DNA from: Closterium sp. NIES-65
Lineage: Eukaryota; Streptophyta; Zygnematophyceae; Desmidiales; Closteriaceae
NCBI GenBank assembly: GCA_948144175.1
Contig: CANXME010002015.1
Coordinates: forward strand, 434,001 to 498,000
DNA: 64,000 bases
Direction: 5' to 3'
Part shown: positions 6,061 through 58,913 of the stretch, one piece after another
Numbering within the stretch: position 1 is the stretch's first letter
Layout of the letters: each line of letters opens with the position of its first letter
Notes under the pieces: model-generated
What the model saw: only the letters and a program-made list of their open reading frames with translations
Databases searched by the model: none
Told to the model about the DNA's origin: nothing
Made by a program: the position numbers and the translations under genes

Positions 6061-6139
6061 CTGCCCTGCCTGGTGAGCACAGTCCCACTGTCACTGCGAG
6101 CTCTTTCCCTACTGCTTGCACTACGTCGCTGTCGTCACC

Positions 6140-9100
6140 ATGGCTACCCCTAGTGTCCTAGCTTTTGACGCTGAGGGTCGCGCCATTGATTTTGAGGTCT
6201 GGTTAGACGACCTGCAGCTGTTCTTACAGTGCGACAGGGCTGACGGCCTTTCTCTCTTTGACCTCACCTCTAGCGCCTCTCCTGCTCCTGCTGCTGATGC
6301 TGATCCCACTGTCCGCTCTCAGTGGGCCACCCGCGATGCTGCTGCACGTCTTGCTGTGCGTCGCCACCTCCCTACCTCTGAGCGTGCGCACTTTAGTCAG
6401 TACAAGAGTGCTCAGACCTTGTACGACGCTGTAGTTGCACGCTACTCCTCCCCTGCCACTGCTGCACTGAGCCGTCTCATGCTTCCCTACCTCTTTCCTG
6501 ACCTCTCTGCCTTTCCCACTGTCGCTGACCTCATTACGCACCTCCGCACTAGTGACACTCGCTACCGCGCCGCCCTTCCTGCTGAGTTCTGCGCTAAGAA
6601 CCCCCCCCCCATGTACATCGCTCTCTACTACGTAGTCGCGCGCCTCCCTGACTCCCTTCGCGTCGTCAGGGACCACTTTCTCGCAGTCTGTCCCACCACC
6701 CTCACCGTTGACCTCCTTGAGAAGGCCCTCCTCGCAGCGGAGAAGAGCATAGTCGCTGTAGGTGCTTCTCGTGGTGACCCTCGCACCCCCATCTTTGAGG
6801 GGTGCTCTCCTTCCCCCTTGCTGCCCTCTGTTGCCTCTGCTGCTGCTGCCGACCTGCTTGGTCTTGAGTCGGTCGGCGCGGCGTCTGCCCCTAGTGGGAG
6901 ACGTCGCTCCAGCAAGGGCAAGGGGGGCAAGGGCGCGGGTGGAGCTGGAGGGGGCGGTGGCGGTGGCGGCGGTGGCGGCGGAGGGAGTGGGGGTGGCGGC
7001 GGGACTAGTGGCGGGGGTGGTGGTGGTGGTGGCAGCAGCGGCGGAGACGGTGGTGGTGGTGCCAGCGGTGGTGGTGGAGGCAGCGGCGGAGGTGGAGGCG
7101 GCGGAGGTGGAGGCGGTGGAGGCGGCAGCGGAGGAGGCGGTGGTGGTGGAGGAGGTGGAGCTGGTCGGGGTGGTACCCAGCAGCGTAGCGGCGGTGGTGG
7201 TGGCCAGCGCTCGCAGCGGCAGCAGCAGCAGCGCTCGCGGGACATCCCTCCGCCTCAGCAGCTTCGTGAGTGGTACGCTGGGCGTCAGAGGGGTGGGGGT
7301 ACTGGTCCCTGCACCTACGTTCTTCGTTCCGGCGACCGCGCGGGTGAGCAGTGTGGGGGTGCCCACGCCACCCAGCGCTGCTTTGGCCGCCTGACGGACG
7401 CTTGGCGTCAGCAGTTCCCTGGGGCTAGTGAGATCCCTCGCTGGGATGAGCTTCTTAGGGCTGGTGTAGCGATCTTTGATCTTGATTTTGATGCTATCCT
7501 TGCTGCTATGTATGCTGTGACTTATAGTGAGGAGAATGAGGGTTACCGGTGTTTCCAGCCCGACCCGGGCATTGGTACTGCTGCGCTAGGTGCTTGTGAG
7601 GCTGCTGCTCTAGGTGCCAGTGCGTCTGCGCTCTCAGGTACTGGTGAGACTGCGCTCTCAGGTACTGCGTCGTCCTCGTCCTCCCTCACTTTCACACTTG
7701 ACTCCGGGGCTTCTCGCTCCTTCTTTCGAGACCGCACTACCCTTACGCCGCTCGGCCGGCCGGTTGCAGTCTCCCTTGCTGACCCCTCTGGGGGTCCTGT
7801 CCTGTCTCACTTCTCCACTGTCCTCCCGTGTCCGGCTGCCCCTTCGGGCACCCTGTCTGGTCTGTACCTTCCCTCGTTCTCTACGAACTTGGTGAGTGGC
7901 GCGGACCTGCAGGATGTGGGGGTTCACCAGTTCACTCCTGCGAGTCAGCGGGTGACCCACTGCACGGAGGCACGCACAGGCCGACACCTGGCCACGTTCT
8001 CGCGTCGGCCGGGGTCGAGTCTCTACACCCTGACCGTTGAGTCTCCTCCTGTCCCTGCGTCTGGTCAAGTGGCTGCGTCAGGTCAAGTGCTTGCTGCTGC
8101 GTCCCGGTCAGGTCCTGAGTCTGCCCCCTGTTCTTGTCGCCTCCTGTCTCACGAGACTCTCCTGTGGCACCACCGTCTTGGCCACCCCTCCTTGCCCCGT
8201 CTTCAGAGCATGGCTTCCCGTGTCCTTGTCTCTGGTCTTCCCCAGTCTCTCCCTCCTCTCCCCTCCGGGCCAGGACCTCCGAGTGTCCCCTGTGTCGAGG
8301 GTCGCCTCCGGGCTACTCCTCACTCCTCCCACTTCCCCCCGACAGAGGCTCCCCTGCAGACGCTTCACATGGATGTGTGGGGCCCAGCCCCCGTCCGTGG
8401 GCGGGGTCACGAGCGCTACTTCCTGTTGGTGGTTGACGACTACTCGCGTTACACCACAGTCCTCCCCTTGCGCAGCAAGGGTGCGGTCACTGAGGTGCTG
8501 ATCGACTGGATCCGCGAGGCTCGTCTCCAACTCAAGAAGAGCTTCGGCTCGGACTTTCCTGTTCTGCGTCTGCACTCGGACAGAGGCGGAGAGTTCTCTT
8601 CTCGCCTTCTGCGAGACTACTGTCGTGCACGGGGGATCCGCCAGACCTTCACGCTTCTGGACTCACCACAGCAAAATGGGATTGCTGAGCGCCGCATTGG
8701 CATGGTCATGGATGTCGCTCGTACGTCCATGATGCATGCGGCTGCCCCCCATTTTCTGTGGCCGTTTGCGGTGAGGTACGCGGCGCATCAGCTCAACCTT
8801 CACCCCCGGGTCTCTCGGCCTGCGATGTCCCCAGCCTTGCTGTGGACGGGGAAGGTTGGCGATGCGTCTGTGTTCCGTGTCTGGGGATCTCGGGCGTTTG
8901 TCCGCGACTTGTCTGCGCACAAGCTGTCCCCTCGTGCTGCTCCCTGTGTCTTCCTTGGCTTCCCCACTGACGCCCCAGGGTGGCAGTTTTACCACCCCTC
9001 CTCTCGTCGTGTTCTGTCCTCCCAGGACGTCACGTTCGACGAGTCAGTCCCCTTCTACTGTCTCTTCCCCTACCGCACTCCTTCCCTCCCCCCTCCCCCG

Positions 9101-13044: not shown

Positions 13045-16000
13045 TCAAGAAGTGAGCAAGTGAGGCAAGACAGGCACAAGACCCAGTTGCATGCAGCAGC
13101 GCTGATGATCACAAGGCGCAAGTACCTTGGTGAAGACATCAGCAGTGTTGGCCTCAGAGGCCACGTACGCAAGTCGCAACTGTCCACGCTGCTGTAGCTC
13201 ACGAGCAAGAAAGTAGCGGAGAGCAATGTGCTTTGTCCTGTGCTCCAGTCGCTGCTCTCGACACAAGGCCAGCATGGCCTTGTTGTCTACATACAGGACT
13301 GGAGGAGAACAAGGCGGCTCTCCAAGGTCGGTCAGCAGGTAGGTGAGCCAGCGAAGCTCCTGGGCAGCCATAGCCCCGGCGTAGATCTCAGCCTCACAAC
13401 TGGAGCCAAGGACAGAAGACGAGCGGGTAGCCCGCCACGAAACAGAGCCGGAACCAAGGCTGAAGGTGTAACCCTGTGACGACCGCTGCGTAGCCTGGTC
13501 GTCAGCCCAAGAAGCGTCCGCGTGCCCAGTAAGGACCACTGGACTGCGCCCTCCAAGCACTAGCCCCATGCCCGACGTACTGCACAAGTAGCGCAACACC
13601 CTCTTTGCTGCAGCCATGTGCTCTGGTCGGTGTCTCCCAGGAGCAACGTAGCGTGCGAGAATGCTAAGAGGGTATGCAAGGTCAGGTCGTGTGCAGGTCA
13701 TCAGGTACATGAGGCAGCCAACAAGCTCTGGATATGGGCCACTCGACTCTACGGACTCATCCGAAGGCAGAGCTGAGAGTGAGTGGCGAGTAGGCAGAGG
13801 AGTGGCCTGAGGCGAGGAGTACGTGAAGCCGAAGCGCTGAAGGACCTGCTGCACCATGTGTGACTGAGTCAGGGTAATGGTGCGGCGTGCTCTGTCCCGG
13901 GTGATCTGCAAGCCTAGGTAGCTGCACAGTTCACCAAGGTCAGTGCACGTGTGTCTCTTCTGCAGCTCGGACTTCACGTAGGCGAGTCCAGCAGTGTCAG
14001 CTGTGGCAAAGACCAAGTCGTCAACGTACACGAGGATGTAGAACGGCGGCAGAGAGGTGTCGGTGCGCAGAAACAGCGACGGGTCGGCAGTAGAAGGAGC
14101 AAACCCAAGTGCCGCCAGCGTAGTCCTCAGTGTGTCGTGCCACTCACGTGGCGCCTGGCGGAGACCGTAGACTGGACGCCGGAGACTCCACTGGGTACCA
14201 GGAGGGAAAGACCCAGTGAAGCCAGGTGGGCGACGCAGCCAGATCTCCTCGTGCAGGCTGCCCTGCAAGAAAGCAGTGCTGAAGTCAAGAGAGTGCAGCT
14301 CGTAGTCACGGTGAGCAGCAACGTGCAGCAGTACCCGAAGAGTGGTCATCTTCGGGGTGGGGGAGAAGGTCTGAAAGTAGTCAACTCCCTGCCGCTGACT
14401 GAAGCCACGAGCCACGTAACGCGCCTTGAAGACAGGCGGAGAACCCGGCGGCCGCTTCACCCTGAAGATCCACATGCCACTGACTATGTTCGCCCCAGGA
14501 GGGGAACAGCGTCAACGTAGGTGCCTGTGGACTTCCAGGAAGCCATCTCTGCATCCATAGCTGCCTGCCACTGAGAGGAGTAGGGACCCTCTATCGCCTC
14601 CGCGTAAGAGCGCGGAGTCGGGATGTCTAGTGCATCCTGGTCTCCCTCAGGGGCGAGCAGTACAGACGCGAGATGAGGTGAAGCGGCGGCCAGACACTGG
14701 AACTCCTCCTGCCTGTCCTCAAGGACGTCCGTGCCAAGGGCACACTCACCCCCGACGGACGGAGGACAGACAGACTCAGACCCAAGGACAAGACTAGCAG
14801 CGTAGTCTAGACGACAGCGCGCAGCAAAGTCGACGAGCTCAGTGACAAGGGCAGACGCAGCAAAAGACTTGAAAGAAGGGTCAGTGACAGCAGTAGCAAG
14901 GAGACGCGTGATAGTAGGACTGGCAGCACGAAGAGAGTCCAACTCTGGGTCGGCAAGAGCAGGAAGAGAGGAAGCAGGAGGAGAAGGCAAAGGGGCACGC
15001 AGAGGAGCAGTAGATGGACGCAGAGACATCCGGTGCGTGCCAGGGACAGGAGGAGGACGCTGACGCGAACCGCGACTACTAGTGCGCGCAGCACGAACAT
15101 GCGACGCAGGACGAGACGCAGGCTCACGACGCTCAGTAAGACCTCCAGTCGGACCAGCGTAGGGAGAAGGAGCAGGCAAAGGGGAGGCATGCTGTAGGTG
15201 TGACTGGACAGGCTGTGGACCCTCTAAGGGAGGAGGAGGAGGACCAGGAGAAGGTGTAAGACCAAGAACCTGCTGTAGGAGCGGAACGAAGTACGGTCGG
15301 GGCCGCGTGGCGACGCCAGAAACAGCAGGGACAGCACCAGTACCCCCAGCAGGAGTACCCGCTCCATTAGCACCTCCAGCAGCACCTCCAGTAGCTCCAG
15401 AACCCCCAGCAGCACCTCCAGTAGCCCCAGAACCCCCAGCAGCACCAGGAGCACTGCCAGCCGGACCTCCAGCGGTAGTCTCAGCGCCAACACCCTCAGT
15501 AGTACCAGCTCCAGGAGAACCCTCAGGCCCAGCAGCTCCAGTACCCCCAGTACGAACACCTCCGGGACGCGCGGCAGCAGCACCCTCAGCAGCCGAAGAA
15601 CCTCCAGCACCAGCAGCACGCCTCCAGCGCCGGGCAAACCACTCACGCAGCTCCTGTGGGGAGAGTGGCTCTCGGCGAGACGAAGCACCTCTTGGCGGAG
15701 AACCTCCAGGCGAAGAACCTCCAGGCTCAGGACCCTCAGGCAAAGCACCTCAAGGGGGAGCACCTCCAGTCTGAGCACCCCCAGGCTCAGCACCCCTAGG
15801 CTCAGCACCCCTAGGCTCAGTACCCCCAGGCTCAGCACCCCCAGGCTCAGCACCCCTAGGCTCGGCACCCCCAGACTCCGCACCCCCAGGCTCAGCACCC
15901 CCAGGCACAGCACCCCCAGTCACAGCACCCCTAGGCTCAGCACCCACAGCCGCACCAGAGTCATCAGTGACCTCGACAGGCTCGACCGCGTCTACCTGGG

Positions 16001-18979
16001 ACACACGTGAAGGGGCAGGACCGTGAGGGGGGAGGGGGTCTACCGGGGGGGGACCTGGTACCAAGAAGAGCGGGGGTGGGGGGAGGGACGGAGTGCGGTA
16101 GGGGAAGAGGCGGTAGTAGGGTACCGACTCGTCGAACGTGACGTCCTGGGAGGACAGAACACGGCGAGAGGTGGGGTGGTAGAACTGCCACCCAAGGGCG
16201 TCGGGGGGGAACCCCAGGAAGACGCAGGGAGTAGCGCGAGGGGACAGCTTGTCCGCAGACAAGTCGCGGACAAACGCCCGAGATCCCCAGACCCGGAACG
16301 CAGACGCATCACCAACCTTCCCCGTCCACAGCAGGGCTGGGGAGGTCTCCGGCCTGGAGACCTTGGGGTGGAGGTTGATCTGATGCGCCACGTACCTGAC
16401 CGCAAACGGCCACAGAAAATGGGGGGCAGCCGCATGCATCATAGACTTACGAGCGACGTCCATGACCATGCCAATGCGGCGCTCTGCAATCCCATTTTGC
16501 TGCGGTGAGTCCGGAAGCGTGAAGGTCTGACGGATGCCTCGCGCACGACAGTAGGCACGCAGAAGGCCAGAGGAGAACTCTCCGCCTCTGTCCGAGTGCA
16601 GACGCAACACAGGAAAGTCCGAGCCAAAGCTCTGCCTGAGCTGGAGACGAGCTGCGCGGATCCAGTCGATCAGCACCTCAGTGACATCACCCTTGCTGCG
16701 CAAGGGGAAGAGTGTGGTGTAACGCGAGTAGTCGTCAACCACCAACAGGAAGTAGCGCTCGTGACCGAGTCCACGGACGCGGGCAGGGCCCCACACGTCC
16801 ATGTGAAGCGTCTGCAACGGAGCCTCTGTCGGAGGAAACTGGGAGGAGTGAGGGGCAGCACGCTGGCGCCCCTCGACACAGGGGACACAGGCAGGGCCAG
16901 GGCCCTGAGGAAGGGGAGGGAGGGACCGGGGGAGACCAGACACAAGAAGACGGGAGGCCATGCCTCTGAGCCGAAGCAGAGAGGGGTGGCCAAGGCGGTG
17001 GTGCCAGAGGAGGGTCTCGTGAGAGAGACGGCGACACGAACAGGGGGCAGACTCAGGACAAGACCTGGACGCTGCAGCAAACACCTGACAAGACGAAGGG
17101 ACCCTACCAGACTCAACACCTGGAGGAGAAGCAGTGGTCAGTGTGTACAGGCTCGACCCTAGCTGACGTGTAAACGTAGCCAGGTGGCGACCTGTGCTAG
17201 CCTCTGTGCAGTGTGTCACCCGCTGACGAGCAGGAGTGAACTGGTGGACACCCACATCCTGTACGTCAGCACCACTCACCAGGTTCGTAGAGAACGAGGG
17301 GAGGTAGAGACCAGACAGGGTGCCAGAGGGAGCCGCTGGACACGGGAGGACTGTGGACAAATGAGACAGGACAGGACCCCCAGAGGGGTCAGCCAGGGAC
17401 ACCGCAACCGGCCGACTAAGCGGCGTGAGAGTGGTGCGGTCCCGAAAGAAGGAGCGAGACGCCCCAGAGTCAAGAGTGAAGGTGTGAGAGGCCAAAGCGG
17501 ACACAGTACCTGAGAGTGCAGACTCACCAGTACCTGAGAGTACAGACGCACGGGCACCTAGAGCAGCAGCCTCACTGGCACCTAGAGCAGCAGTACCAAT
17601 GCCCGGGTCGGGCGGGAAACACCGGTAACAGTCACCCTCATCACTATTAGTCACAGCATACATGGCAGCAAGGATAGCATCAAAGTCAAGATCAAATATA
17701 GCTACACCAGCCCTAGACAGCTCTCCCCAGCGGGGGATCTCAGAGGCCTCCGGAAACACTTGGCGCCAAGCGTCTGTCAGGCGGCTAAATCAGCGGCGGG
17801 CGGCGTGGGCGCCCCCACACTGCTCACCCTCGCGGTCGCCGGTGCGAAGGACGTAGGCGCAGGGACCAAACGCCCCACCACGCTGACGCTGCGAGTACCA
17901 CTCACGGAGCTGCTGAGGGGCGGGGACGTCGCGAGAGCGCTGCTGCTGCTGCTGCTGGTGCTGCTGGCGCTGACCACCCCCAGTGCTGCTCCGCTGGGAC
18001 GAGCCACTCCGACCACCTCCACCACCGCCACCCCCGATATCGCCGCCACCGCCGCCACCGCCACCCTCGAACCCGCCGCTCCCACCGCCACCTCCGCCAC
18101 CACCTCCGCCGCCGCCACCGCCTCCACCGCCGCCACTAGTACCTCCACTCCCGCCACCACCCCCACTGCCACCCCCACTCCCCCTGCCGCCCCCACCTCC
18201 TCCGCCACCGCCCCGCTAGCTCCACCCGCTCCCTTGCCCCCCTTGCCCCTGCCAGAGCGGCGCCTACCGCTGGGGGCAGACGCCGCACCGACCGACTCTA
18301 AACCAACGAGGTCGGCCGCAGCAGCAGAGGCGACAGAGGGTAACAGGGGGAAAGGAGAACACCCCTCAAAGATGGGGGTGCGAGGGTCACCACGAGAGGC
18401 CCCTACAGCGACTATGCTCTTCTCGGCCGCTAGCAGGGACTTCTCGAGGAGGTCGACAGTGAGGGTGGTGGGAGAGACAGAGAGAAACTGGTCCCTAACT
18501 ACACGAAGGAACTCAGGGAGACGGGTGACGAGAAAGTAGAGGGTGATGTACATGGGAGGGAGGTTTGCGGCGCAGAACTCAGCAGGAAGCGCAGCTCGGT
18601 AGCGAGTGTCACTAGCGCGGAGGTGGGTAAAGAGGTCAGCGACTGTGGGAAAGGCAGCAAGGTCAGGGAAGAGGTACGGTAGCATGAGGCGGCTCAGTGT
18701 AGCAGAGGAAGGGGAGGAGTAGCGCGCAACTACAGCGTCGTACAAGGCCTGAGCGGTCTTGCACTGACTAAAGTGTGCACGCTTGGAGGAAGGGAGGTGG
18801 CGACGCACAGTGGGGTCAGCATCAGCAGGAGGGGCAGGGACAGCGCCAGAGACAAAGTCAAAGAGAGAAACTTCATCTACTGTATCGCACAGCAAGTACA
18901 GCTGCAGGTCGTCGACCCAGACCGCAAAGTCAATGGCGCGACCCTCAGCGTCAAAAGCCATGACACTAGGGGTGGCCAT
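13045..18979 (-). pseudogene. Copia gag-pol of element D, lightly broken
   Basis: Translation would start at the minus-strand ATG 18979-18977 (MATPSVMAFDAEGR), homologous to the B start. Gag is open until the glycine-rich tract (about 18230-17960), where a frameshift turns Gly-rich into Val/Ala-rich sequence. Protease (DSGAS), pre-integrase (WHHRLGHPS) and integrase (MDVWGP, SDRGGEF, GIAERR) are open from 17759 to 15750. There a TGA interrupts the GGAEP-like linker. The frame continues to about 14490, where one C is missing from a C-run (CCCCTCCT versus CCCCCTCCT) in front of the reverse transcriptase. RT (YVDD intact) and RNase H are open from 14475 to the stop at 13045. Three lesions make it non-autonomous. 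Confidence 0.88.
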
Positions 18980-38900: not shown

Positions 38901-41900
38901 CCTACCTACCTACTGCTCCTACTGCTTTTACTACTGCTGCTACCATGGCTAGCCCTCCAGTGCTAGCCTTCGATGCTGAGGGGCGCCCAGTGAAGTTCGA
39001 CACCTGGCTTGATGACCTACACCTCTTCCTACAGCTCACTGCCAAGGAAGACATCTCGCTGTACGATCGCGCCCTAGGCCACGCTACTGCTCCTGCTGCT
39101 ACTGCCGACAGCACTGCTCGCTCACAGTGGCGGACTCGTGACGCCCATGCTCGCTTCGCTATCCGCAACTCTCTGCCGATAGATGAGCGCGAGCACTTTG
39201 GGCAGCACAAGACTGCACAGGCACTGTACACTGCTGTCGTTGCCCGCTACTCCTCACCGGCCTCTGCTGCTCTTGGCCGTCTCTCTCTTCCCTACCTGTT
39301 CCCCGACTTAGCTTCCTTTCACACTGTCGCTGACCTCATTACCCACCTCCGCACTAGTGAGGCTCGCTTCCGCGCCGCTATGCCTGATGAGTTCCTCGCC
39401 ACGCACCCACCCCCGCTCTGGATCACTCTCTACCACCTAGTCACGCGCCTCCCTAACTCGCTGCGCTCAGTCAGGGACCACTTCCTCGCTCGCTGCCCCA
39501 CCGAGCTCACCATTGCCCTCCTCGAGAAGGAACTCCTTGCAGCCGAGACTAGCATAGTCGCTGTAGGTGCCTCTCGCGGTGACCCCCGCACCCCGTTCTT
39601 TGAGGGGTGTTCTCCCTCCCCCCTTCTTCCCTCTGTCGCCTCTGCTGCTGCTGTCGACCTCCTTGGTGCTGAGAAGGTCGGGACTGCGTCTGCTTCGGGC
39701 GGACGCCACAGCGGCAAGGGCAAGGGGGGCAAGGGCGGTGGTGGTGACAGCGGGGGTGGCGGTGGTGGGGGAGGTGGTGGCGGGGGGAGTGGCGCGGGTG
39801 GGGGAGGTGGCAGCGGTGGTGGGGGTGGCGGCAGCGGCGGGGGAGGTGGCCGGGGCGGAGGAGGTAGTGGGGGTGGCGGTGGACAAGGCGGCGGCAGGGG
39901 TTGGGGTGGTCGAGGAGATGGTGGCGGGAGTGGTGGGCGTGGCGGCACTGGCGGTGGCCAGGGACAGCAGCACACTCCCTCGCCCCAGGAGGTCCGTGAG
40001 TGGTACTCTCAGCACGGGGGGGGGGGGGGGGGGGGTGGCCTTAGCTGCACGTACGTCATTCGCACTGGTGACCGCACTGGCCAGCCGTGTGGGGGACCGC
40101 ACGCCACACAGCGTTGCTTCGCTCGTCTGAGCGACGCTTGGCGTGTTCAGTTCCCTCAGGCCACTGAGCTGCCCCGCTGGCTTGATCTCCTGAAGAAGGG
40201 GATTGATATCAATGCTCTAGATTTTAATGCTATTCTCTCTGCCATGTATGTTATGTCTACTAGTGGAGAGGGTTCTGAGTACCTGAGTGTCCCGCCCGAC
40301 CCGGGCATCAGGACGAGTGCGTCTGCTGCTCCAGGTACCCACGTGTGTGCTACCCCAGGTGCTGGTGAGGCTGCTGCTCTAGGTGCGTGCGTGTCTGCCC
40401 CCCCTGGTACTGTGTCGACTGCAGCACTGCACACCTTCACACTGGATTCAGGTGCCTCTCGCTGTTTCTTTCGTGACCGCACTGCCCTTGAGCCCCTTGC
40501 TCGGCCAATTGCTGTCTCCCTTGCTGACCCCTCTGGGGGTCCGGTCATTGCGACCTCCTCCACTGTCCTTCCCTGTCCTGCGGTCCCGTCGGGCACACTG
40601 TCAGGTCTCCACCTCCCCTCGTTCTCCACGAACTTGGTGGCAGGTTGTGCTCTCCAGGACGGGGGTGTTCACCAGTTCACCCCTGCCTACGAGCGTGTGA
40701 CACACTGCACGTGTGCTCGTACGGGCCGCCACTTGGCTACCTTCACCCGGCAGCCGGGGTCGGACCTGTACACACTGACTACTGCCTCCCCTCAGGTCGC
40801 TGCGTCTGCGTCTGCGTTTGCGTCCGCGTCAGGTCGGCTGTCTGCCCCCTGCTCGTGTCGCTCTCTAGCGCACGAGACTGTCTTCTGGCACCACCGACTT
40901 GGCCACCCGTCTGTGCAGCGCCTTCGTGCCATGCACTCCCGGTACCTTGTCTCTGGTCTTCCCAGGGTTCTCCCTCCTCTCCCACCCTCGCCTGCTCCTC
41001 CCTGCCTTCCCTGTGTCGAGGGGCGGCAGCGCGCCGCTCCTCACTCCTCGTTTCCCCCGACGACTGCTCCCTTGCAGACGCTCCACATGGACGTGTGGGG
41101 CCCAGCCCGCGTCCGTGGTCAGGGTCAGGAGAGGTACTTCCTGATCGTTGTTGACGACTACTCGCGCTACACCACGGTCTTCCACTTGCGCACCAAGGGT
41201 GAGGTCCCTGATGTTTTGATCCCTTGGATCCGCAGAGCTCGTCTCGAGCTCAGCGAGCGTTTCCGCTCGGACTTTCCTGTCCTGCGCTTGCACTCTGACA
41301 GAGGTGGTGAGTTCTCCTCCGACCTCTTGGCAGCCTGCTGTGCTGAGCACGGCATTGAGCAGTCGTTCACGCTTCCGGCCTCTCCACAGCAGAATGGGGT
41401 TGCGGAGCGCCGCATTGGCCTGGTCATGGAGGTCGCTCGTACCTCCTTGATCCATGCGGCTGCCCCCCATTTTCTGTGGCCGTTTGCGGTCCGGTACGCT
41501 GCGCATCAGCTCAACCTCTGGCCCCGTGTCTCCTTGCCGGAGACCTCGCCCACACTGCTGTGGACGGGGGAGGTTGGCGATGCGTCGCGTTTCCGGGTCT
41601 GGGGATCTCGAGCTTTTGTTCGCGATTCGTCTGCGGACAAGCTCTCCTCTCGTGCTGTTCCCTGCGTCTTCCTCGGCTTTGTTCCGGACGCGCCTGGTTG
41701 GCAGTTATACCACGCCACCTCGCGCCGGGTCTTGCCCTCTCAGGACGTCACTTTTCACGAGTCTGTCCCCTACTACCGCCTCTTCCCCTACCGCACTGCC
41801 CTACTCCCACCCCCACCTCTCTTCCTCGCGCCAGGTGCTGCTGTCGTAGACCCCCTCCCCCCTCAGGGTGCCGCTCCCTCAGGTGTGTCTCAGGTAGACC

Positions 41901-42349
41901 CGGTTGAGCCTGTTGAGGTTGCTGTCGACTCTCGTCCTGCTGGGGGTGCTGAGCCTAGGGGTGCAGACTCTGGGGGTGCTGAGCCTGGGGGTGCGGACTC
42001 TGGGGGTGCTGAGCCTGGGGGTGCTGAGCCTGGGGGTGCTGAGCCTGGGGGTGCTGTGCCTGGGGGTGCTGAGCCTGGGGCTGCGGTGACTGGGGGTGCT
42101 GAGCCTGGCGGTGCTGCGCCCGGGGGTCCTACGCCTGGACGAGACCTCTCCTCGGAGCAGTTGCGTGAGTGGTACTTACAGTACTGCAGCCTCCGGAGAG
42201 GTACCTCTGGGATCAAGCGCGCTACGGAGACTGGTGCTGGCACTTCTCCTTCTAGTCGGGAGCTCCCCTCTCGTGAGCGGATCCGTGAGTGGTACGAGCG
42301 CCGTTGCACACTTCGTAGTGGCGCGCCTCGTCTCACGGACCCTGCTGCT

Positions 42350-42778
42350 GCTGGTGCTGCGGACCCGGGCGTTGGAGCTGCTGCTGGTGCTGCGGACCCG
42401 GGCGTTGGAGCTGCTGCTGGTGCTGAGGACCCGGGCGTTGGAGCTGCTGCTGGTACTGCGGACCCGGGCGTTGGAGCTGCTGCTGGTACTGCGGACCCGG
42501 GCGTTGGAGTTGCTGCTGGTGCTGAGGACCCGGGCGTTGGAGCTGCTGCTGGTGCTGAGGACCCGGGCGGTGGAGCTGCTGCTGGTACTGCGGACCCGGG
42601 TGTTGGAGCTGCTGCTGGTGCTGAGGACCCGGGCGTTGGAGCTGCTGCTGGTACTGCGGACCCGGGTGTTGGAGCTGCTGCTGGTGCTGAGGACACGGGC
42701 GTTGGAGCTGCGACTCGTGCTGAGGACCCTGGTGTTGGAGTCCCTACTGGTGCTGCGAACTCGGGCGTTGGTACTGCC
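42350..42778 (+). repeat. 33-bp minisatellite in the K integrase-RT linker
   Basis: Thirteen in-frame copies encode AADPGVGAAAG-like 11-mers, with A/E/T variation at the first position and decay in the last three copies. It is a flexible linker expansion between integrase and RT, at the site where B, D and F have GGAEP repeats and Ala/Gly-rich runs. Confidence 0.8.
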
Positions 42779-44259
42779 GCTGGGGGCACTGGTGCTGTCC
42801 CTGCTGTGTCTGGAGTCGCCGCGCGCCCTCAGCCGTACTTCGTTCCGCTCCTTCAGCAGGTTCTTGGTCTCTCACCTCCTCCTGGTCCTCCCCCTCCTTT
42901 AGTTTGTCCACAGCCTGTTCAGTCACTGCCTGCTCCTTCTCCTTACTCTGGTCCTACTGACGGTCTTACTGAGCGTCGTGAGCCTGCGTCTCGCCCTGCG
43001 TCGCCTGTCCGTCCTGCTAGCACTAGTGCTCGTAGTTCGCGTCCACGTCCTCCCCCTGCCCCTGGCACGCACCGGATGTCTCTGCGTCCTTCCACTGCTC
43101 CTCTGCGTGCCCCTTTGCCTTCTCCTCCTGCTTCCTCTCTTCCTGCTCTTGTCGACCCTGCGTCGGACTCTCTTCGTGCTGCCAGTCCTACTGTCACGCG
43201 TCTCCTTGCTACTGCCGTCACTGACCCTTCCTTTGAGTCTTCTGCGGCGTCTGCCCTAGTTGCTGAGCTCGTCGACTTTGCTGCTCGCTGTCGTCTAGAC
43301 TACGCTGCTAGTCTTGTCGCTGAGTCTGAGTCTGTCTGTCCTCCGTCCGTCGGGGGTGCGTGTGCCCTTGGCACGGACGTCCTTGAGGACAGGCAGGAGG
43401 AGTTTCAGTGCTTGGCTGCCGCTTCACTTCATCTCGCGTCTGTACTGCTAGCCCCTGAGGGAGACCCGGATGCACTAGACATCCCGACTCCGCGCTCTTA
43501 CGCGGAGGCGATAGAGGGTCCCTACTCCTCTCAGTGGCAGGCAGCTATGGATGCAGAGATGGCTTCCTGGAAGTCCACAGGCACCTACGTTGACGCTGTC
43601 CCCCCTCCTGAGGCGAACATCGTCAGTGGCATGTGGATCTTCAGGGTGAAGCGGCCGCCGGGTTCTCCGCCTGTCTTCAAGGCGCGTTACGTGGCTCGTG
43701 GCTTCGGCCAGCGGCAGGGAGTTGACTACTTTCAGACCTTCTCCCCCACCCCGAAGATGACCACTCTTCGGGTACTCCTGCACGCTTCTGCTCACCGGGA
43801 TTACGAGCTTCACTCTCTCGACTTCAGCACAGCTTTCTTGCAGGGCAGCCTGCACGAGGAGATCTGGCTGCGTCGCCCACCTGGCTTCACTGGGTCTTTC
43901 CCTCCTGGTACCCAGTGGAGTCTCCGGCGTCCAGTCTACGGTCTCCGCCAGGCGCCACGTGAGTGGCACGACACACTGAGGACTACGCTGGCGGCACTTG
44001 GGTTTGCTCCTTCTACTGCCGACCCGTCGCTGTTTCTGCGCACCGACACTTCTCTGCCACAGTTCTACATCCTCGTATACGTCGACAACTTGGTCTTTGC
44101 CACTGCTGACACTGCTGGACTCGCCCACGTGAAGTCTGAGCTGCAGAAGAGACACACGTGCACTGACCTGGGTGAACTGCGAAGCTACCTTGGCTTGCAG
44201 ATCACCCGGGACAGAGCACGCCGCACCATTACCCTGACTCAGTCACACATGGTGCAGCA

Positions 44260-44288
44260 GGTCCTTCAGCGCTTCGGCTTCACGTACT
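44260..44288 (+). repeat. 29-bp direct duplication, left copy
   Basis: GGTCCTTCAGCGC...CACGTACT of K pol is present in full here and again at 50153-50181. Between the two copies lies the Ty3/gypsy-like segment. It is far longer than the 4-6 bp duplications made by retroviral-type integrases. Confidence 0.9.
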
Positions 44289-44909
44289 GTCGCGCTATTA
44301 ACACATAGCCTGCGGCTAAGTGTGAATTGCACAGCAGCTTAAGGTGAGGTTGTACTATATTGCTGTTTGTTTCTTGTACTCATACTTTCGTTTGTGTGCT
44401 TGGAATGTACTGTACATATATGGAGCCGAGCAGGTGGGAGAAGCTCAAGGAATTTGGTGGGGACAGGGTTGAATTCGATTCCAGGCTGGGAATTCGATTC
44501 CAGGCTGGGAATTCGATTCAAAGAATGCAATTCCAGCTGGAAGTCGGTGCATGCCTAGTGGGCCACTGGGACACAGCTAGCACCTAGAAGCTATCGCGTG
44601 CAGCACTGCTGCTATGCGACTTGGCAACTAGAGTTAGCTTGTGGGACAAGCAACCTAGGCAGAAGGATGGTTGGGACTTAGGCAGGGGAGGATACCTGCT
44701 CTGTGCTTTTTGCTTGTTTGTTTCTCATAATACTGCAATTCGTTTTCCAAACCACGGAGGCAAGCAGTTAAAGAGAAGCTCAGGCAAACTGACGGAGCCC
44801 TTGCGAGGGAGAGTATTCAGTCTTGTTGCAAACAAGCAAAAAGGGTAGCGGTAGAGAAGTGTACGGGCGCAGAGGCCCGGTGTTAACCACGGCAACAGGG
44901 CCGTGAGGC
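44289..44909. other. Leader of the gypsy-like insertion
   Basis: About 620 bp with no convincing gene. It includes a small tandem repeat (44471-44519). It could contain the end of a degraded LTR and an untranslated leader, but I see no TG...CA pair or primer-binding site. Confidence 0.4.
44471..44519 (+). repeat. 19-bp tandem repeat, 2.6 copies
   Basis: GAATTCGATTCCAGGCTGG occurs at 44471 and 44490, with a partial third copy at 44509. Confidence 0.85.
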
Positions 44910-47900
44910 ATGCGCGATACGGATCCGGATCTACATATCCATCAGTTGCGGTCGGGACAGAGGTATCCCGCTAGGACTATGGAAGGTCAAGAAGAGCCGC
45001 CTGTGAAGCCTGGATTTCGTGCAGATGGAGGAGTTAACGAAACACAGGGAGAAAAGGGGCCTGATCAGCCGAAGGAGGGTGAGAATCGTCAGGAGAACTT
45101 GCCCAGCTCGGTGCACAACTCGCCAGGACGACAGAGCGAGGCGAGATCTGGGCATCAAGGATCGCAGCAAGGAACGCCTGAGCGCGGTGAGGCGCACAAA
45201 CAGGAAGCAGAGCAGAACTTCAGAGAGGAGAATTTCCGTGGTCTATCCGGAGGGCGCAGTACCACCAGGGGGCCCGAGCAAGGGGGTTGGCCTGCAGGAA
45301 GCAGAGAGAGGGAAGCCGCAAGCTGGGGGACAGGGAGGTCTATGAACACGGCGCCCCCAAAGATCGAAATACCAGACCGCTTCTCAGGGGCACCAGGTGA
45401 AGAGCCAACACTGAAGAACTACCTTATGATGATTGATGATATACGGTACACCTGGGAGAGAGAGGGGTTAGATCCGATAGAATTTTTCAGAGGATTGGGA
45501 AGGACTCTGAAAGGGGAGGCACTGACACACTACAGAGTGGAGCGTCAGGGGCTGTTGATGCAGTGCAAGAATGGGGACTTTGCGCAGGGAGAGATCACTG
45601 ACCGATTTTTGGACACGCTGCGTGAGCAGTTCCCCGGGCACTCAGCTGAGCGTATGATAGAGTTCCAAGACTTTAAAAGAGGGCGGGCCGAGTCGCTGCT
45701 GGCATACTACAACCGGCTGCTGGAGCTGGCTGAGGATATGGGCTGCGTTGAGGAGCGTACCTTGGTGACGAAATTCCTGGGGGGGTTGGAGGAGGAGCTG
45801 ATGAATGAAATGAAAACACGTCTGTACGCTTTGGGGATGAAGGCGAGACTCAGGCAGGTGTATCAAGTGGCGAAAGAAGTGGAGGAAGGGCGGAGGTTCT
45901 TTGAAGGCTTGAGAGGAGCAGGCTCCAGCCGCTTAAACGAGCGAAGGAGACCAGCCTGGGCAGCAGCTGAAGGAAGGAGGGGGGAGGAAGAACGTAGAGA
46001 GAAGCCCTGGGAAGACCCAAGGCGGTGCCATAAGTGTGGAGAAAAGGGACATATACGGAAGGACTGCACAGTGGGCATTGTATGTGACACCTGTGGCGTG
46101 GAGGGACACTTCAGGCGAGACTGCCCCAAGGCTCCCAGCTGCACCAACTGCGGCAAGAAGGGACACACGAAAGAAAGGTGTTACAGCCGAGGAGAGAGGG
46201 AGAAAGGGAAGTCCACGAGGGAGCTGCAGCTGGAAAGGGAGCTGGCGAAATTAAAGGCACAGATGGAGAAGACTCAGGTCAGTGAGGACCCGGAGAAAGC
46301 GTTGCTAGCCTGGGAGGAAGACGAAGAGGAATCAGATGAGGAGGAACCGGAGTATGGTACGATGGCGTTACAACCTAGACTTCGAGAAGAGTTGGGGCTG
46401 AGGAGCAAAGGGGTGGACGGCAGAACCAATGAAAAGACCTACGAGAGGAGAAGCCCCAAGATACTACAGAGTGGAGATGAGAAGCGGACAGCACGGCGAC
46501 GGCCTGAGGAGAGAATGGTGTGTCAGCCTACAGCGTTGGTGGCCGAATCCGGAGCTGTGGTTGTAAGAGGTATACGGGTAGAGAATGCGGTGGTGGACAC
46601 TGGGGCGCAGAGTGTGCTGATTGGGAAGAAGTTGGGGGAGCAACTGAAAGCTCAAGGGGACTTGGAGCTAGTGGAACGGGGATTACTCATCATGACGGCG
46701 GAAGGGGGAGCACCCAAATGGATGCCGTGCACAAAGGAGCCAATCGAGATTACGCTGCAGCCTGGGGAAAGGGGTGAGACCAAGATACGAGTGCAGTGCG
46801 GGATGACAGAATCGGATGACTACGACATCCTGCTAGGCATGGAGCTCCTGTTCAGGGTGGGAGCGACAATATGTACTTGGGAAGAGCGGGTGCAGTACCG
46901 TACTGAACGTTGGAAGGAAGGAGGTGAGCTGGGCGAACTGCCGGTCAGGTTTGTTAAGACAGAACCCAAGAGGGCCTGGAGAGCAGGGGCGGTCAGGGGA
47001 GAGAGGAAGAAGTGGAATGGAGAAAGCGCACTGGCAGGGATGGGGGCAAAGCTGAGTGAGTACGGTGTGACGCTAGTGGAGCTGTTCGGAGGCATAGGGG
47101 CGGGGCTTGCAGCAGCCCTAGAGGCCGGCCTGGAGGTTCAGAAGTGGCATTACATAGAGTTAGATCCGGAGGTGCGTAAGATGGCGTGGAGTCATGCCAG
47201 GGCCTTGCAGGAGCGGTATCCAGCGCAGCTGCGAAAGGAAGTCATAGTAGAGGCAATGAAGAGAGAGCATTGGGATGTAAAGGAGATCAGCAGGCAGGAA
47301 GTGAGGAGCTGGGGAAAGGTGGACTTACTGGTGGCCGGATGGGAGTGCCAGGGCACTTCTCGGGCAGGCAAGGGAAGAGGGCTGCAGGATGAGCGCACAG
47401 GATTAATCAAGAAGCTCCTGGAGGTCATGGCCTGGATGAGGGAAGAAGGAGAAAAATACGCGTACATCTTGGAGCACGTGGATATGAAGGGAGATCCTCG
47501 AGAACCGGTGCGAGCTGTGAGGGAGATGGTAGAGGCACAGCTAGGGAAGGGAGTGAGTTGGGATGCAGCCCTGCACGGAGCACGATGCCACCGGTCACGG
47601 TGCTACTGGCAGAACGTGCTACCAGAGGAAGAGCTGCGTGCCAGGCTGTCTAGGGTGGAGAGGGATGACCGGAGGATAGTGGAGGATATCCTGGAACCGG
47701 GTCGCGTGGCAGCTCCAGTGTGGAAGCCGGACCATCCCCTGCAGCACCAGTGTAACAGGATAGGGGAGGCACGACGAGCCTTGCCGACGCTGGTCGCCTA
47801 CCCAGGAGCCAGGGGGTTTGTTGAAGTGGACGGCCAGCCAGGCCCAGGGATGATATACGACCACAAAAGGAAAAGGTGGGAGGAGCCGACAGCTCTGGAG

Positions 47901-49949
47901 AGAGAATTGGCCATGGGTTATCATGCGGGAGCGACGGCAGCACCGGGTATAAGTGAGGAGGCAAGGAGGGCGGCAGTGGGGAGAGCAATTGATGAACACT
48001 CACTGAGATGGCTGATTGGAGAGATGAGAAAGGGGGCAAAGGGACCTGGAGGTAAGAAGGCACGGGGGGAAAAGGGGTGGCGGAAGCAGCCAGCGTACTC
48101 AGCGGTGGAGCTGAAAAAGGAAGTAGGGGCGGAGCCGAGACAAGAGAAGCTGAATGTCACCAAGGGCCCAGAGAAGGAATGGGAGATAGGGGCAGATGTG
48201 GAGGCAGGGGCGGCAGAGGCGATCAAGCAGCTGCTGAAGGCGCACAGGGGCACATTTGCATACAACCTGCAGGAGCTGGGGCAGTACAAGGGCGGGGAAT
48301 TAGAGATAAAGCTCACGACAGAGATACCGACTTACCAGCGCAGGAGGCGCATGAATGCTGAAGATGCAGCCATCTGCAAAGAGAAGTGTGAGGAGTTGCT
48401 GGCAGCAGGAATCATCCGCCCATCCGAGTCTAGTTACGCAGCGGCCACAGTGGTAGCAGCCAGGAAAGACTTGACCGGCGCGGTTCTGTCACGACGGATG
48501 TGCGGGGACTACCGTGATCTGAATAAGATCACGGAGCCTGACCGCTATCCCATGCCGACTGCAGAGGATATCTTCGACCTGCTGGAAGGGGCAGTCATCT
48601 TCACCACACTGGACCTTAGGCAGGGGTTCAACCGAATTGCCATAAGAGAGGAGGACAAGCGCAAAACCGCTTTTCACGGGGTGGACGGGTTGTATGAGTA
48701 TAACAAGATGCCATTCGGCATGCGGAACGCATCTGCCGTGTTCCAGCGAGCTATGGATTAGGTACTGCGTGGCATACCAGCAGCAGCGTGTTATATCGAC
48801 GATGTGCTGATCTTCAGCAAAACGGACATGCAGCATGTGGAGGACCTGAAGCGGACGCTAGAGGCGATAGCAGCAGCAGGACTCACCTGCCACCCAGAGA
48901 AGTGCAAGATAGCAAGGAGGACAGTGGCGTATCTGGGGTTTGAGGTGAAAGGGGGCAGGCTGGGTATTCAGGAGGCGAAGGTTAAGGTACTGGACAAGCT
49001 GGCACTGCCGAAGGACAAGTCAGGGCTGAGAGCGTTGCTCGGCTTCCTAAACTACTATAGGAAGTTCGTGCTGAACTTTAGCCGGCGAGCGAACCTCTTG
49101 AATCAACTGCTTAGGGAAGGAAAGCGATGGGAGTGGGGAAAGGAGGAAGAGGCGGCCAGACAGGATCTAATAGAGGCAGTACGAACAGGCACACTGCTGC
49201 AGATACCCAGGGCAGATGCTCCCTTCACGCTTTACACTGACTGGAGCTGCATGGGGATGGAGGCAGTCCTGTGCCAGGAGATTGAGCGAGAGGAGCGAGT
49301 GGTAGCATTTGCCAGCCGCAGCTGCAGCCCCACCGAGGCAAATTACTGCTCGTATGAAGGCGAGGGGCTGGCAGCTGTATGGGGCATCAACCATTTCAGG
49401 GTCTACCTGCAGGGGCGTAGGTTTGTGCTGGTAACCGACCACCAGCCTTTGATGTGGCTGATGACAAACCAGGAACTGACGGGACGGAATGCCCGCTGGG
49501 CGATCAAGCTGCTGGGATACGACTTTGAAATCCGCCACCGCCCGGGCAAGACCCTCCAGCATGCTGACGGTCTGTCTAGGAACCCTCCACCTGTACAGCC
49601 CGTGGCGCAGCTGGTAGCCGTAGCACAGGTGCCGGCAGCGGGCTAAGGGCAAGAGAAAGTGGAGAAGAGGCAGTTAGATGTCTGGGAGGATACCGAGACT
49701 CTGGAGTGGATTAAGGGAGGGAGCACGGAGGGCGAGGAGGCCAGTGAAAGGGCAAGGGCCAGGGGGCAGCATTACCGTTGGTACCAAGAGCAGCTGCAGC
49801 TTCGCACCAGTGAGGGATGGAAGATAGTGCCACAGAAGAAGGACAGAGAAAGGATCATGCGGTGGGTGCATGGGAAGCTGGGGCATTACGGAACGGCACA
49901 CACCAATCAACTGCTGAGCACGATGTACTGGTGGGCAGGGCTGTCGTGA
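44910..49949 (+). pseudogene. Ty3/gypsy gag-pol polyprotein with embedded C5 cytosine methyltransferase
   Basis: One frame holds, in order: a Gln/Glu/Gly-rich N-terminus; a retrotransposon gag domain (about residues 150-330); three CX2CX4HX4C zinc knuckles (C373-C386, C392-C405, C411-C424); an aspartic protease (DTG 563-565); the methyltransferase (about 717-1045); and the RT. The RT core has CGDYRDLNKIT, TTLDLRQGFNRI and, past a TAG at 48759-48761, YIDD at about 48792-48803. RNase H (TLYTDWS, TDHQPLMWLM) runs to a TAA near 49644-49646. The same frame then encodes an integrase zinc-binding block (VHGKLGHYG...TMYWWAGL) to the stop at 49949. The integrase core is absent. ATG 44979 is an alternative start. 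Two in-frame stops and truncation make this copy inactive, but 1283 codons before the first stop point to recent function. Confidence 0.85.
47058..48045 (+). other. C5 cytosine DNA methyltransferase domain within the gypsy polyprotein
   Basis: Residue numbers refer to the frame starting at 44910. Motif I, which binds S-adenosylmethionine, reads ELFGGIGAG (724-732). An acidic residue follows as YIELDPE. Motif IV carries the catalytic cysteine in GWECQGTSRAGKG (C813; the usual PC is EC). The motif VI equivalent is LEHVD (E855, V857; usually ENV). Motif VIII reads CHRSRCYWQN (893-902), close to the HRARYFWGN form of DNMT3-type enzymes. A C-terminal ERELAMGYHAG plus GRAIDEHSLRWLI fits motifs IX-X. 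No target-recognition or reader domain is recognisable. The expected activity is transfer of a methyl group to cytosine C5 in DNA; the sequence context is unknown. It lies between protease and RT, so it would be released from the polyprotein. Confidence 0.8.
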
Positions 49950-50152
49950 AGTAGCTCCTCTCCTTCTGCTCTTCTGACTGTTCTTCTCTTCCTCCTTCTC
50001 AGATTCCCTGTTTCTTCCTGACGGATACTTCCACCTCCTCTCTCACCCTCATCCTCTCATGCCTGCTTGTCTGTCCCGGTACCGCCTGTCTGCCTCTTCT
50101 TTCTCTTGGTGTATGTGATGATGCCGCTCCTGCCTTCTCCTTGCTTCTCCTT
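49950..50152. other. Pyrimidine-rich tail of the gypsy-like insertion
   Basis: About 200 bp dominated by CTTCT/CCTC runs on the plus strand. No LTR or polypurine tract on this strand. The right copy of the 29-bp duplication follows immediately. Confidence 0.5.
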
Positions 50153-50181
50153 GGTCCTTCAGCGCTTCGGCTTCACGTACT
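50153..50181 (+). repeat. 29-bp direct duplication, right copy
   Basis: Same 29 bases as 44260-44288. K pol continues normally after it. Confidence 0.9.
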
Positions 50182-50954
50182 CCTCGCCTCAGGCCACTCC
50201 TCTGTCTACTCGCGACTCGCTCTCAGCTCTGCCTTCGGATGAGTCCGTAGAGTCGAGTGGCCCGTATCCAGAGCTTGTTGGCTGTCTCATGTAACTGATG
50301 ACCTGCACACGACCTGACCTTGCATACCCTCTTAGCATTCTTGCGCGCTATGTTGCTCCTGGGAGACACCGACCAGAGCACATGGCTGCAGCGAAGAGGG
50401 TGTTGCGCTACTTGTGCAGTACGTCGGGCATGGGACTAGTGCTTGGAGGGCGGAGTCCAGTGGTCCTCACTGGTCACGCGGACGCTTCTTGGGCTGACGA
50501 CCAGGCTACGCAGCGGTCGTCACAGGGTTACACCCTCAGCCTCGGTTCCGGCTCTGTTTCGTGGCGGGCTACTCGCTCGTCTTCTGTTCTCGGCTCCAGT
50601 TGTGAGGCTGAGATCTACGCAGGGGCCATGGCTGCTCAGGAGCTTCGCTGGCTCACCTACCTGCTGACCGACCTTGGAGAGCCGCCTCGTTCTCCTCCAG
50701 TCCTGTACGTCGACAACAAGGCCATGCTGGCCTTGTGTCGAGAGCAGAGACTGGAGCACAGAACAAAGCACATTGCTCTCCGCTACTTCCTTGCTCGTGA
50801 GCTACAGCAGCGTGGTCAGTTGCGACTTGCGTACGTGGCCTCTGAGGCCAACACTGCTGATGTTTTCACCAAGGCACCTGCGCCTTGTGATCATCAGCGC
50901 TGCTGTACCCAGCTGGGTCTTGTGTCTGTCTTGCCTCACTTGCTCTCCTCTTGA
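50153..50954 (+). pseudogene. Copia pol of element K, right part (RT end and RNase H)
   Basis: This resumes K pol with the repeated LQRFGFTY segment. A TAC (Tyr) codon in CLMYLMT is TAA at 50292-50294, after which RNase H is open to TGA at 50952-50954. DASWADD, CEAEIYAG, YVDNKA and ADVFTKA are present. An ATG-started open frame from 50067 is an artefact that reads from the insertion into this segment. Confidence 0.85.
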
Positions 50955-56468: not shown

Positions 56469-58913
56469 TCAGCCTAGGAAGAACCTGCGCCAGGATTGCC
56501 AAGGCAGGAAACCGCCTGCACAGCACAACAGAACCAAGGGAGGAACATGGTTACTGACTGCACGTAGCTGCATGCCCGGCAATACCCAGTAACATCCATG
56601 GCACGCAGTTGAGGGAGCCCTGTGTGCCCACCACAGCAGGCAGAGCCGCAAAAGGAGCTCCCCCTCAGGTTGTGCAGGTGAGTAGGTGGTGATGGCGAAG
56701 CATGTGAGGGGTTGCATCATCGATTTACTCCATGTGCAACAGCCTTTCGCACATTCGCGCATGCAACCGACCTTACACACATGCTTGCCACAGCCTTTAC
56801 ACACATGCATGCCACAGCCTTTACAAACATGCATGCCACAGCCTTTACAAACATGCATGCCACAGCCTTTACAAACATGCATGCCACAGCCTTTACAAAC
56901 ATGCATGCCACAGCCTTTACACACATGCATGCCACAGCCTTTACACACATGCATGCCACAGCCTTTACACACATGCATGCCACAGCCTTTACACACATGC
57001 ATGCCACAGCCTTTACACACATGCATGCCACAGCCTTTACACACATGCATGCCACAGCCTTTACACACATGCATGCCACAGCCTTTACAAACATGCATGC
57101 CACAGCCTTTACACACATGCATGCCACAGCCTTTACACACATGCATGCCACAGCCTTTACACACATGCATGCCACAGCCTTTACACACATGCATGCCACA
57201 GCCTTTACACACATGCATGCCACAGCCTTTACACACATGCATGCCACAGCCTTTACACACATGCATGCCACAGCCTTTACACACATGCATGCCACAGCCT
57301 TTACACACATGCATGCCACAGCCTTTACACACATGCATGCCACAGCCTTTACACACATGCATGCCACAGCCTTTACACACACACATGCATGCCACGGCCT
57401 TTACACACATGCATGCCACACCCACCCACACGTGCCACGCCCCTTCACACTCCCCTTCACACTCCCCTTCACACTGACCGCAGGCGGAGCAGCGGCGGTA
57501 GAAGCGCCCCACGAGCTGCAGCCCCGACCCCCGACACGCCTCACAGCGCCGCTGCGCCGCCTGGGCGGAGAGGCGAGCCGGGGGGGAATTGGACGAGGTC
57601 AGAGAGGAAGGGGGTGGAGTGAGGGAGGGAGGTAGATGAGAATAAATGAGTCACACATTTGGCATGGTTCACATCGGCGCTAAAAGGCTGCAATGAGGAG
57701 GCGCAGGCAGAGAGGGGAGCATAAAGAGGCGAGGAGCAGAGCAAGGGCGTGGAGAGGGCTTCATCACCCTAGGTGCGCAATGCACGCGTTGCAATAGATG
57801 ACGCGCAACAGCCATCCAGGTCAGCGGTGAGGGATGGAGGATTGATAAGAGAGAGTACGAAGTGACTCGTCGCTCATTATCATCATTTTGACAAGCAGGT
57901 GATGAGACAGGGTGACACACAGGGCGACACACAGGGAGACACACAGGGCGACACACAGGGGGGAAGGTGACTCACAATGCGCTTGCCGAACTCAATGGAC
58001 GCCACGATGAACGGGATCACGCCAGCTGGCACGTGGTGATTGGTGCAGGGACGACAGAGGGGAAGGCACGGACAGGGATGGTACAGTGGGTGGGGGATGA
58101 CAATGAGGAGGATGGGGTGGATAGGGGGGAAGAGGGGGAAGAGGGGGAAGAGGTTGAAGAGGGGGAAGACGGGGAAGAGGGGGATCAGCTTAGAGGCGCT
58201 TTGACGAGCACATGGAGGTGAGGTGAGCCGAGAAGAAGGTGCACTCGCGTTCTCCGTCTGCTCTCTGCCAGTCTCTGTCTGCTCCTTCAATGCTTTAAAC
58301 TCTCTCACAACTCACCGATTGCACCAACCACGATTTGCCACGTCACCTCCGACCGTCCTCCGCCTCCAGACACCCCCAGGTCACCCGACGCAGCAGCAGC
58401 AGCAGCGGTAGCGGCGGGGGACGAGTCTGCTAGGCTAGCAGCTGCGTCGGCAACATGAGCGGCGGAGGCGATTTGTTCTGCAAGGGCGGCGGCAGCGTCT
58501 GGCGGAATGGCAGCGCACCGCGCGCGATGCCGGGAGGGCTGCGCATGCAAACGCAAATGCGTTTGCAAGGAACGGATATCTCTCGTCGTGCTTCCGACGC
58601 TCGCCGCCTCGAAGCACCGGGACTGCGCCGCGTCTGCGCGGTGATAGTTCTCGCGGTTAGGCTGTGCGCGCATCGCCGCCATGGCGGAGAGTTGCGCGCA
58701 GCAAGGCGGAACGGAAAGGCGCTGCGGCGGAGGTGAAGCGCATCGAAGAGCCTGAGAAGCCGAGGCCGCCGCGTGTGTGGTTAGTGAAGGAAGAGAAAGC
58801 ACGTGGCGGGAACGCGCTGGGGCGCACTCAGGCGGCGTGCTGGTTCTCGATGCTGCGACGCGTGCATGGCCGTCTAGCGACCCGATTAACGAGCACGGAA
58901 TAGACCGAGCCAT
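56469..58913 (-). CDS. Plastid-type DnaJ zinc-finger membrane protein, four exons
   Basis: Minus-strand exons: 58913-58316, 58025-57976, 57560-57479 and 56515-56469. All introns are GT-AG (donors GTGAGT, GTGAGT, GTCAGT; acceptors GCCAG, CCCAG, TGCAG) and all phases fit. The joined protein has an Arg/Ser/Ala-rich N-terminus suited to a plastid transit peptide and an Ala-rich spacer. A membrane-like segment, WQIVVGAIAGVIPFIVASIE, then spans exons 1-2. A four-cysteine DnaJ-type module (CEACRGSGL, then CSACGG) spans exons 3-4, and the end is GFLPWQSWRRFFLG. As I recall, short plant plastid proteins of the DnaJ cysteine-rich superfamily share this ending; their exact job is not evident here. Met at 58913 is my choice; 59090 and 58682 are alternatives. 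Confidence 0.75.
56772..57413. repeat. 24-bp minisatellite, about 27 copies, in the last intron of the DnaJ-type gene
   Basis: The unit TTTACACACATGCATGCCACAGCC repeats with very few changes (some units have AAAC in place of ACAC). The unit length is a multiple of three and has no stops, so several frames on both strands stay open for 220-350 codons; these are not genes. The array lies wholly inside the intron 57478-56516. Confidence 0.9.
57900..57962. repeat. 15-bp tandem repeat in intron 2 of the DnaJ-type gene
   Basis: About four copies of GGGCGACACACA plus AGG, with single-base changes. It lies just downstream (minus strand) of the donor at 57975. Confidence 0.7.

Follow-up and report, generated by a model that had tools for sequence, protein, structure and literature searches.

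DNMT3-type cytosine methyltransferases carried by retrotransposons have been described in a streptophyte alga and in a dinoflagellate (de Mendoza et al. 2018, PMC5890265), and a 2025 survey that cites this work again places DNMT3 in streptophyte and dinoflagellate retrotransposons (PMC12344493). In the streptophyte Klebsormidium nitens the element is KnitGypsy-Dnmt3, reported as an independent acquisition, a long terminal repeat (LTR) Gypsy element with a DNMT3-type methyltransferase inside its Pol open reading frame (ORF) (PMC5890265). Here we consider a 64,000-nucleotide stretch of the charophyte Closterium sp. NIES-65 (contig CANXME010002015.1, positions 434,001 to 498,000; the window is this whole stretch), for which a preliminary description made from the letters alone had proposed a complete DNMT3-like C5 cytosine methyltransferase domain inside a Ty3/gypsy polyprotein. 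On balance we favor reading the locus as a decayed Ty3/gypsy-type element whose Pol carries such an enzyme between protease (PR) and reverse transcriptase (RT), and whose working relatives would use it to methylate their own complementary DNA (cDNA).

The precedent that the preliminary description named for charophytes is found in KnitGypsy-Dnmt3, which resembles the window element in host group, element class and the place of the domain in Pol. Compared by description only, the two differ in that DIRS-like A-B-A-B repeats are reported for KnitGypsy-Dnmt3 whereas the window copy is truncated, and in that its key residues are reported as conserved whereas the motif IV proline is a glutamate in the window (PMC5890265). 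No sequence named Klebsormidium occurred among the protein database matches to the window domain. SymbioDIRS-Dnmt3 of Symbiodinium likewise has a DNMT3-type domain in Pol beside the RT, and it methylates CG in yeast, but it is a DIRS element with a tyrosine recombinase in a dinoflagellate host, and the authors regard it as acquired separately; SymbioLINE-Dnmt is also a retrotransposon-borne C5 methyltransferase, but of an orphan DNMT lineage in a long interspersed nuclear element (LINE) with a separate ORF1 (PMC5890265). The kind of element is already known from KnitGypsy-Dnmt3, while the broader set of hosts, the two positions of the domain and the Glu-Cys loop described below were not recognized among the open-licence articles listed and are apparently new. 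No report on Closterium, Marchantia or chlorophyte elements was recognized among the open-licence titles listed, and no open-licence article was found that joins Closterium, retrotransposon and DNA methyltransferase. If the present reading is true, methyltransferase-bearing Gypsy elements would not be limited to one charophyte, but would extend to several streptophyte algae, a liverwort and chlorophytes.

Identification of the methyltransferase domain

All of the motifs quoted in the preliminary description were located in one frame of the + strand, within a 1283-codon ORF at 44910-48761. Residue counts here and below refer to aligned rows with letters at the position in question.

47052..48023, + strand: DNMT3-like domain of a C5 cytosine methyltransferase (residues 715-1038; from profiles and fold prediction)
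47079..47105, + strand: motif I, ELFGGIGAG (from sequence and column conservation), S-adenosylmethionine (AdoMet) binding by analogy
47337..47375, + strand: motif IV, GWECQGTSRAGKG, with the catalytic Cys kept and the preceding Pro replaced by Glu (WECQ)
47469..47483, + strand: motif VI, LEHVD, with Glu855
47586..47615, + strand: motif VIII, CHRSRCYWQN, with Arg895 and Arg897
47880..47921, + strand: motif IX, EEPTALERELAMGY, with an identity of 90% or more in columns 992, 993, 997-999, 1001 and 1003
47898..47930, + strand: ERELAMGYHAG block, in the same frame
47976..47993, + strand: motif X, VGRAID, with Gly1024 in 72/74 and Asp1028 in 73/74 rows

Searched alone, 47058-48045 matched PF00145 with an E-value of 6.8e-5 and 22.9 bits, narrowly over the curated cut-off of 22; the same profile scored 20.1 in the search of the whole ORF, slightly below that cut-off, and its match spans the motif IV part only. 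DNMT3B was the top PDB match of 47058-48200 by phmmer (E-value 1.4e-4), and a profile comparison gave 5.7e-23 for DNMT3 against 4.7e-7 for the best DNMT2-type tRNA C38 methyltransferase, with no DNMT1 chain reaching an E-value of 1 in the same comparison. A DRM or bacterial type was dropped on this comparison as well. Profile and fold both place the domain closer to DNMT3 than to the remaining C5 methyltransferases, and its membership of the C5 family is indicated by the profile match and by motifs in the order I, IV, VI, VIII, IX and X, of which motif IX aligned to the C-terminal block of DNMT3A and is weak taken alone. The catalytic domains of DNMT3A and DNMT3B are the nearest solved relatives and have the motif VIII pattern HRxRxxW in common with the window domain, but they are only ~20% identical to it and read SPCN where it reads WECQ; neither ADD nor PWWP was found in the window ORF with Pfam. 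The complete catalytic domain proposed from the motifs is supported by profiles, motifs and fold alike.

We rejected a chance match of motifs, as a profile built in this analysis found the domain in 81 database proteins, in which the catalytic residues are almost always retained. Nor is a recent viral origin supported, since the C5 methyltransferases of phages and giant viruses in a viral fold library gave lower TM-scores than DNMT3. Pattern searches of the collection viral_contigs picked out 55 stretches for the methyltransferase and 127 for the RT, none of which was confirmed.

Relatives and arrangements

The nearest protein, from Closterium sp. NIES-54, shares 93% identity with the query across 97% of the query length. 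By source name, the 81 proteins include 22 from Closterium (NIES-53, 54, 65 and 68) and nine from Marchantia polymorpha; Monoraphidium neglectum and Haematococcus lacustris are further named hosts, the code Mesvir probably stands for Mesostigma, and the remaining proteins are environmental or unnamed, the environmental relatives being only 32-40% identical to the window. An RT match in the same chain was found for 43 of the 81, and the domain occurs in two arrangements. The first, PR-methyltransferase-RT, is complete in P0040, and the domain also lies between PR and RT in P0060, P0061 and P0076. The second, RNase H-methyltransferase-integrase (INT)-PHD, is seen for example in P0026 and P0041; P0006 had no integrase core match. 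The position between PR and RT that the preliminary description had singled out therefore holds for the window copy and its arrangement-1 relatives, and does not extend to a large clade with the second placement. Neither of the two results that would have told against the preliminary reading was obtained, namely the lack of a significant methyltransferase profile match, here narrowly over its cut-off, and the lack of the domain between PR and RT in every relative.

That clade is recovered as a single group of 21 rows in the methyltransferase tree (support 100/100, and 100/99 in a second tree) and of 16 rows in the RT tree (100/100). RT precedes the domain in 16 of the 21 rows, and the other five (P0021, P0028, P0042, P0070 and P0075) have no RT match. 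The PHD finger is not exclusive to the clade, since precomputed domains place one in the arrangement-1 protein P0061. Distances in the two trees correlate at 0.77 over 28 shared rows (highest value in 1000 permutations 0.26). Of 82 rows, 16 with insufficient domain sequence do not enter the methyltransferase tree, and of 45 rows, 9 with short RT matches do not enter the RT tree; only DNMT3A pieces from the PDB served as outgroup. The history may have been one capture with relocation or two captures, the RT tree being one of domain-bearing elements alone.

Among 19 relatives of the kind of P0024, P0025, P0026, P0028 and P0071, the C-terminus has a DPFxGxG-like motif after the PHD region in four and a TSPWF motif there in three. 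P0026 has a weak match to the D12 N6-adenine methyltransferase family (E-value 0.0037, below cut-off) that was not found in P0024, P0025, P0066 or P0073; a gypsy element with two methyltransferases would, if true, be remarkable.

The catalytic loop

Conservation of the active site is high across the family: Cys813 is kept in 73/74 rows, Glu855 in 75/75, Arg895 in 69/71 and Arg897 in 68/70, and all four are present in the window copy. The usual motif IV signature of C5 methyltransferases is a Pro-Cys dipeptide, and the window copy has Glu-Cys instead, which we take as a variant, Pro-Cys not being defining for the fold family. The preliminary description had marked the WECQ loop of this copy for separate study; the loop is indeed present, but it is not private to the copy, as residue 812 is Glu in 36, Pro in 35, Ser in three and Asp in one of 75 rows. 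Among the 22 Closterium proteins 18 have letters at the site and 16 of these read Glu-Cys, the Pro of P0030 being an alignment accident in a garbled gene model; all eight Marchantia rows with letters have Pro.

On a tree built without the residue-812 column (62 of 68 rows, DNMT3A outgroup included) we counted at least seven changes between Glu and Pro, whereas 200 shuffles averaged 20 and never fell below 12, which argues that the state is inherited yet has been switched repeatedly. The count comes from parsimony on a single tree, some branches of which are weak, and with one distant outgroup no direction can be read from it. A tentative extension, to which we give some but limited credence, is that an old and widespread DNMT3-like family in green-lineage gypsy elements has changed its catalytic loop from Pro-Cys to Glu-Cys or back on at least seven occasions; the Glu form would then be a functional alternative (with another substrate, such as an RNA:DNA hybrid or single-stranded cDNA, or with other kinetics) and not decay. 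Such a switch next to the catalytic Cys would provide a natural series for C5-methyltransferase chemistry.

Proposed function and alternatives

Possible roles raised in the preliminary description are the silencing of rivals, protection of the element itself and an influence on host methylation. In working relatives the enzyme would be made as part of Gag-Pol and would be cut out, or kept beside the RT, inside the virus-like particle; there it could methylate cytosines in the double-stranded cDNA of the element itself, either before integration or during it, and the new copy would then arrive resembling the methylated repeats of the host. We consider particle-borne cDNA methylation the most likely function because the domain sits in Pol, its active site is intact and the SymbioDIRS enzyme showed CG activity in yeast. 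At the level of sequence, what carries the reading is the domain itself, its place, its active-site residues, its predicted fold and its joint history with the RT. Identity values hint at selection on the domain, short of proof: in comparisons with five Closterium proteins, identity is 49-59% for the domain and 65-69% for RT plus RNase H, and it is 31-40% for the linker after the domain in the four of them where this linker aligned.

Several observations weigh against this function. KnitGypsy-Dnmt3 gave no methylation in the yeast test, a result its authors judged inconclusive (PMC5890265). A change from Pro to Glu beside the catalytic Cys could cripple the enzyme, and the Closterium protein P0015 reads ESQ and has lost that Cys altogether. 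Placement between PR and RT is not universal, given the large RNase H-INT clade. The contrast between domain and linker is not general, the two being equally conserved against P0001 (93% and 91%) and P0040 (40% and 40%), and the domain evolves faster than the RT (median distance ratio 1.47). Finally, the observed/expected CpG ratio is 0.61 in the insert, 0.73 in the window and 0.71 in the copia part; the difference is slight, and CpG depletion was dropped as a sign of self-methylation for that reason.

The alternative that survives best, which we nevertheless consider unlikely, is that enzymes of the ECQ form have no catalytic activity and instead bind DNA or AdoMet, or anchor the integration complex on DNA that is methylated or heterochromatic, much as DNMT3L is an inactive partner of DNMT3A. 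Replacement of the PCQ-loop Pro in about half of the rows, the ESQ of P0015 and the PHD finger, a chromatin reader, in some relatives would all suit such a role, but the Glu rows keep the catalytic Cys (35/36), the motif VI Glu (33/33) and the two Args (27/28 and 26/27) about as well as the Pro rows do. Since these remaining catalytic residues are kept, the Glu probably tunes rate or substrate and does not abolish catalysis. An RNA methyltransferase acting on the genomic RNA of the element or its tRNA primer, as DNMT2 does on tRNA, is rather improbable: the domain does travel with an RNA-based element, and RNA methylation was suggested for SymbioLINE by de Mendoza et al. (PMC5890265), but the profile of the domain puts DNMT3 far ahead of the DNMT2-type enzymes. 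We give still less weight to a role in trans, whether on the genome of the host or on rival elements, with silencing of competitors as the benefit; effects on the host methylome were discussed as possible for Symbiodinium, but K. nitens, which bears such elements, has a land-plant-like methylome (PMC5890265), and an enzyme borne in Pol would be expected to remain in the particle. A functionless passenger retained by chance in decaying copies is very improbable, for although the window copy is dead and 16 of 82 rows held too little domain for the tree, the active-site columns are conserved across the distant environmental relatives and the methyltransferase and RT distances correlate. Marchantia, which can be transformed and bisulphite-sequenced, would open an old question to direct test, namely why an element would methylate DNA even though it is silenced by methylation.

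A stop codon after the methyltransferase

From a prokaryote collection 4 of 88 stretches were confirmed, three of them weak Streptomyces matches. The fourth, L001 (CADCWO010000201.1), is filed under a cyanobacterial metagenome-assembled genome and encodes a eukaryotic-type gypsy element, most likely as an algal contaminant. Its gag-PR-methyltransferase ORF is closed by a stop after the domain, with the RT next in the same frame, and P0036, P0047, P0049 and P0051 share terminal residues with this ORF. At 3489-3500 the stop is followed by CAATCA and the RT in frame, a context that we take to fit the leaky stop motif of the tobacco mosaic virus type. If stops of this type are leaky, the methyltransferase in that clade would be made at the level of Gag.

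Layout and decay of the window copy

The window copy is an insert within the pol gene of a copia element, laid out as follows:

44289..50152, + strand: gypsy-type insert, 5864 bp, 3'-truncated; the copia reading breaks at 44288 and resumes at 50182
44260..44288, + strand: 29-bp direct repeat, left copy (repeat family D3), identical to 50153-50181
50153..50181, + strand: 29-bp direct repeat, right copy (repeat family D3)
38945..44288, + strand: 5' part of the surrounding copia element (gag_pre-integrs, rve, RVT_2)
50182..50954, + strand: 3' part of the copia element (ORF 50298-50954 and reading by eye)
44910..48761, + strand: ORF with gag, protease, methyltransferase and the start of the RT
46023..46130, + strand: gag zinc knuckles (CCHC), PF00098 E-value 1e-11, two stretches, best at residues 372-387
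46560..46850, + strand: aspartic protease region (DTGA), two Pfam matches, both below cut-off
48306..49586, + strand: RT and RNase H (RVT_1, RT_RNaseH, RT_RNaseH_2, phmmer span), with an in-frame stop at 48759-48761
49647..49949, + strand: what remains of the integrase zinc-binding region, following the second in-frame stop (49644; reading compared by eye with relatives)

A second knuckle match in the ORF (PF13696, residues 391-407) was below cut-off in Pfam, and the protease is weak (PF13975, E-value 0.0017, residues 559-647; PF13650, E-value 0.013, residues 551-584), with DTGA present. RT and RNase H run on in the same frame past the end of the ORF, the RNase H lying in the following ORF. 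The order gag-PR-RT-RNase H-INT with a Ty3-type RT can be followed in the window as far as RNase H and the integrase remnant, and is complete in P0040. Stops interrupt the frame at 48759 and 49644 and the integrase reading ends at 49947, so that the copy is defective and cannot move autonomously. A repeat search of 44200-50500 found no LTR pair in this 3'-truncated copy.

The identical 29-bp repeats that flank the insert are much longer than the target duplication of an LTR element, which is usually 4-6 bp; they may stem from repair-type insertion or from a join in the assembly. The truncated integrase is separated from the right repeat by about 200 bp of pyrimidine-rich sequence (49950-50152). 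Copia gag, integrase or RT domains were seen in four ORFs (6116-10825 and 38945-44308 on the + strand, 13045-14475 and 15750-17759 on the - strand), so that the window is rich in copia elements. The region 56469-57635 is repetitive and open in several frames on both strands, with the look of a tandem repeat and no gene implied.

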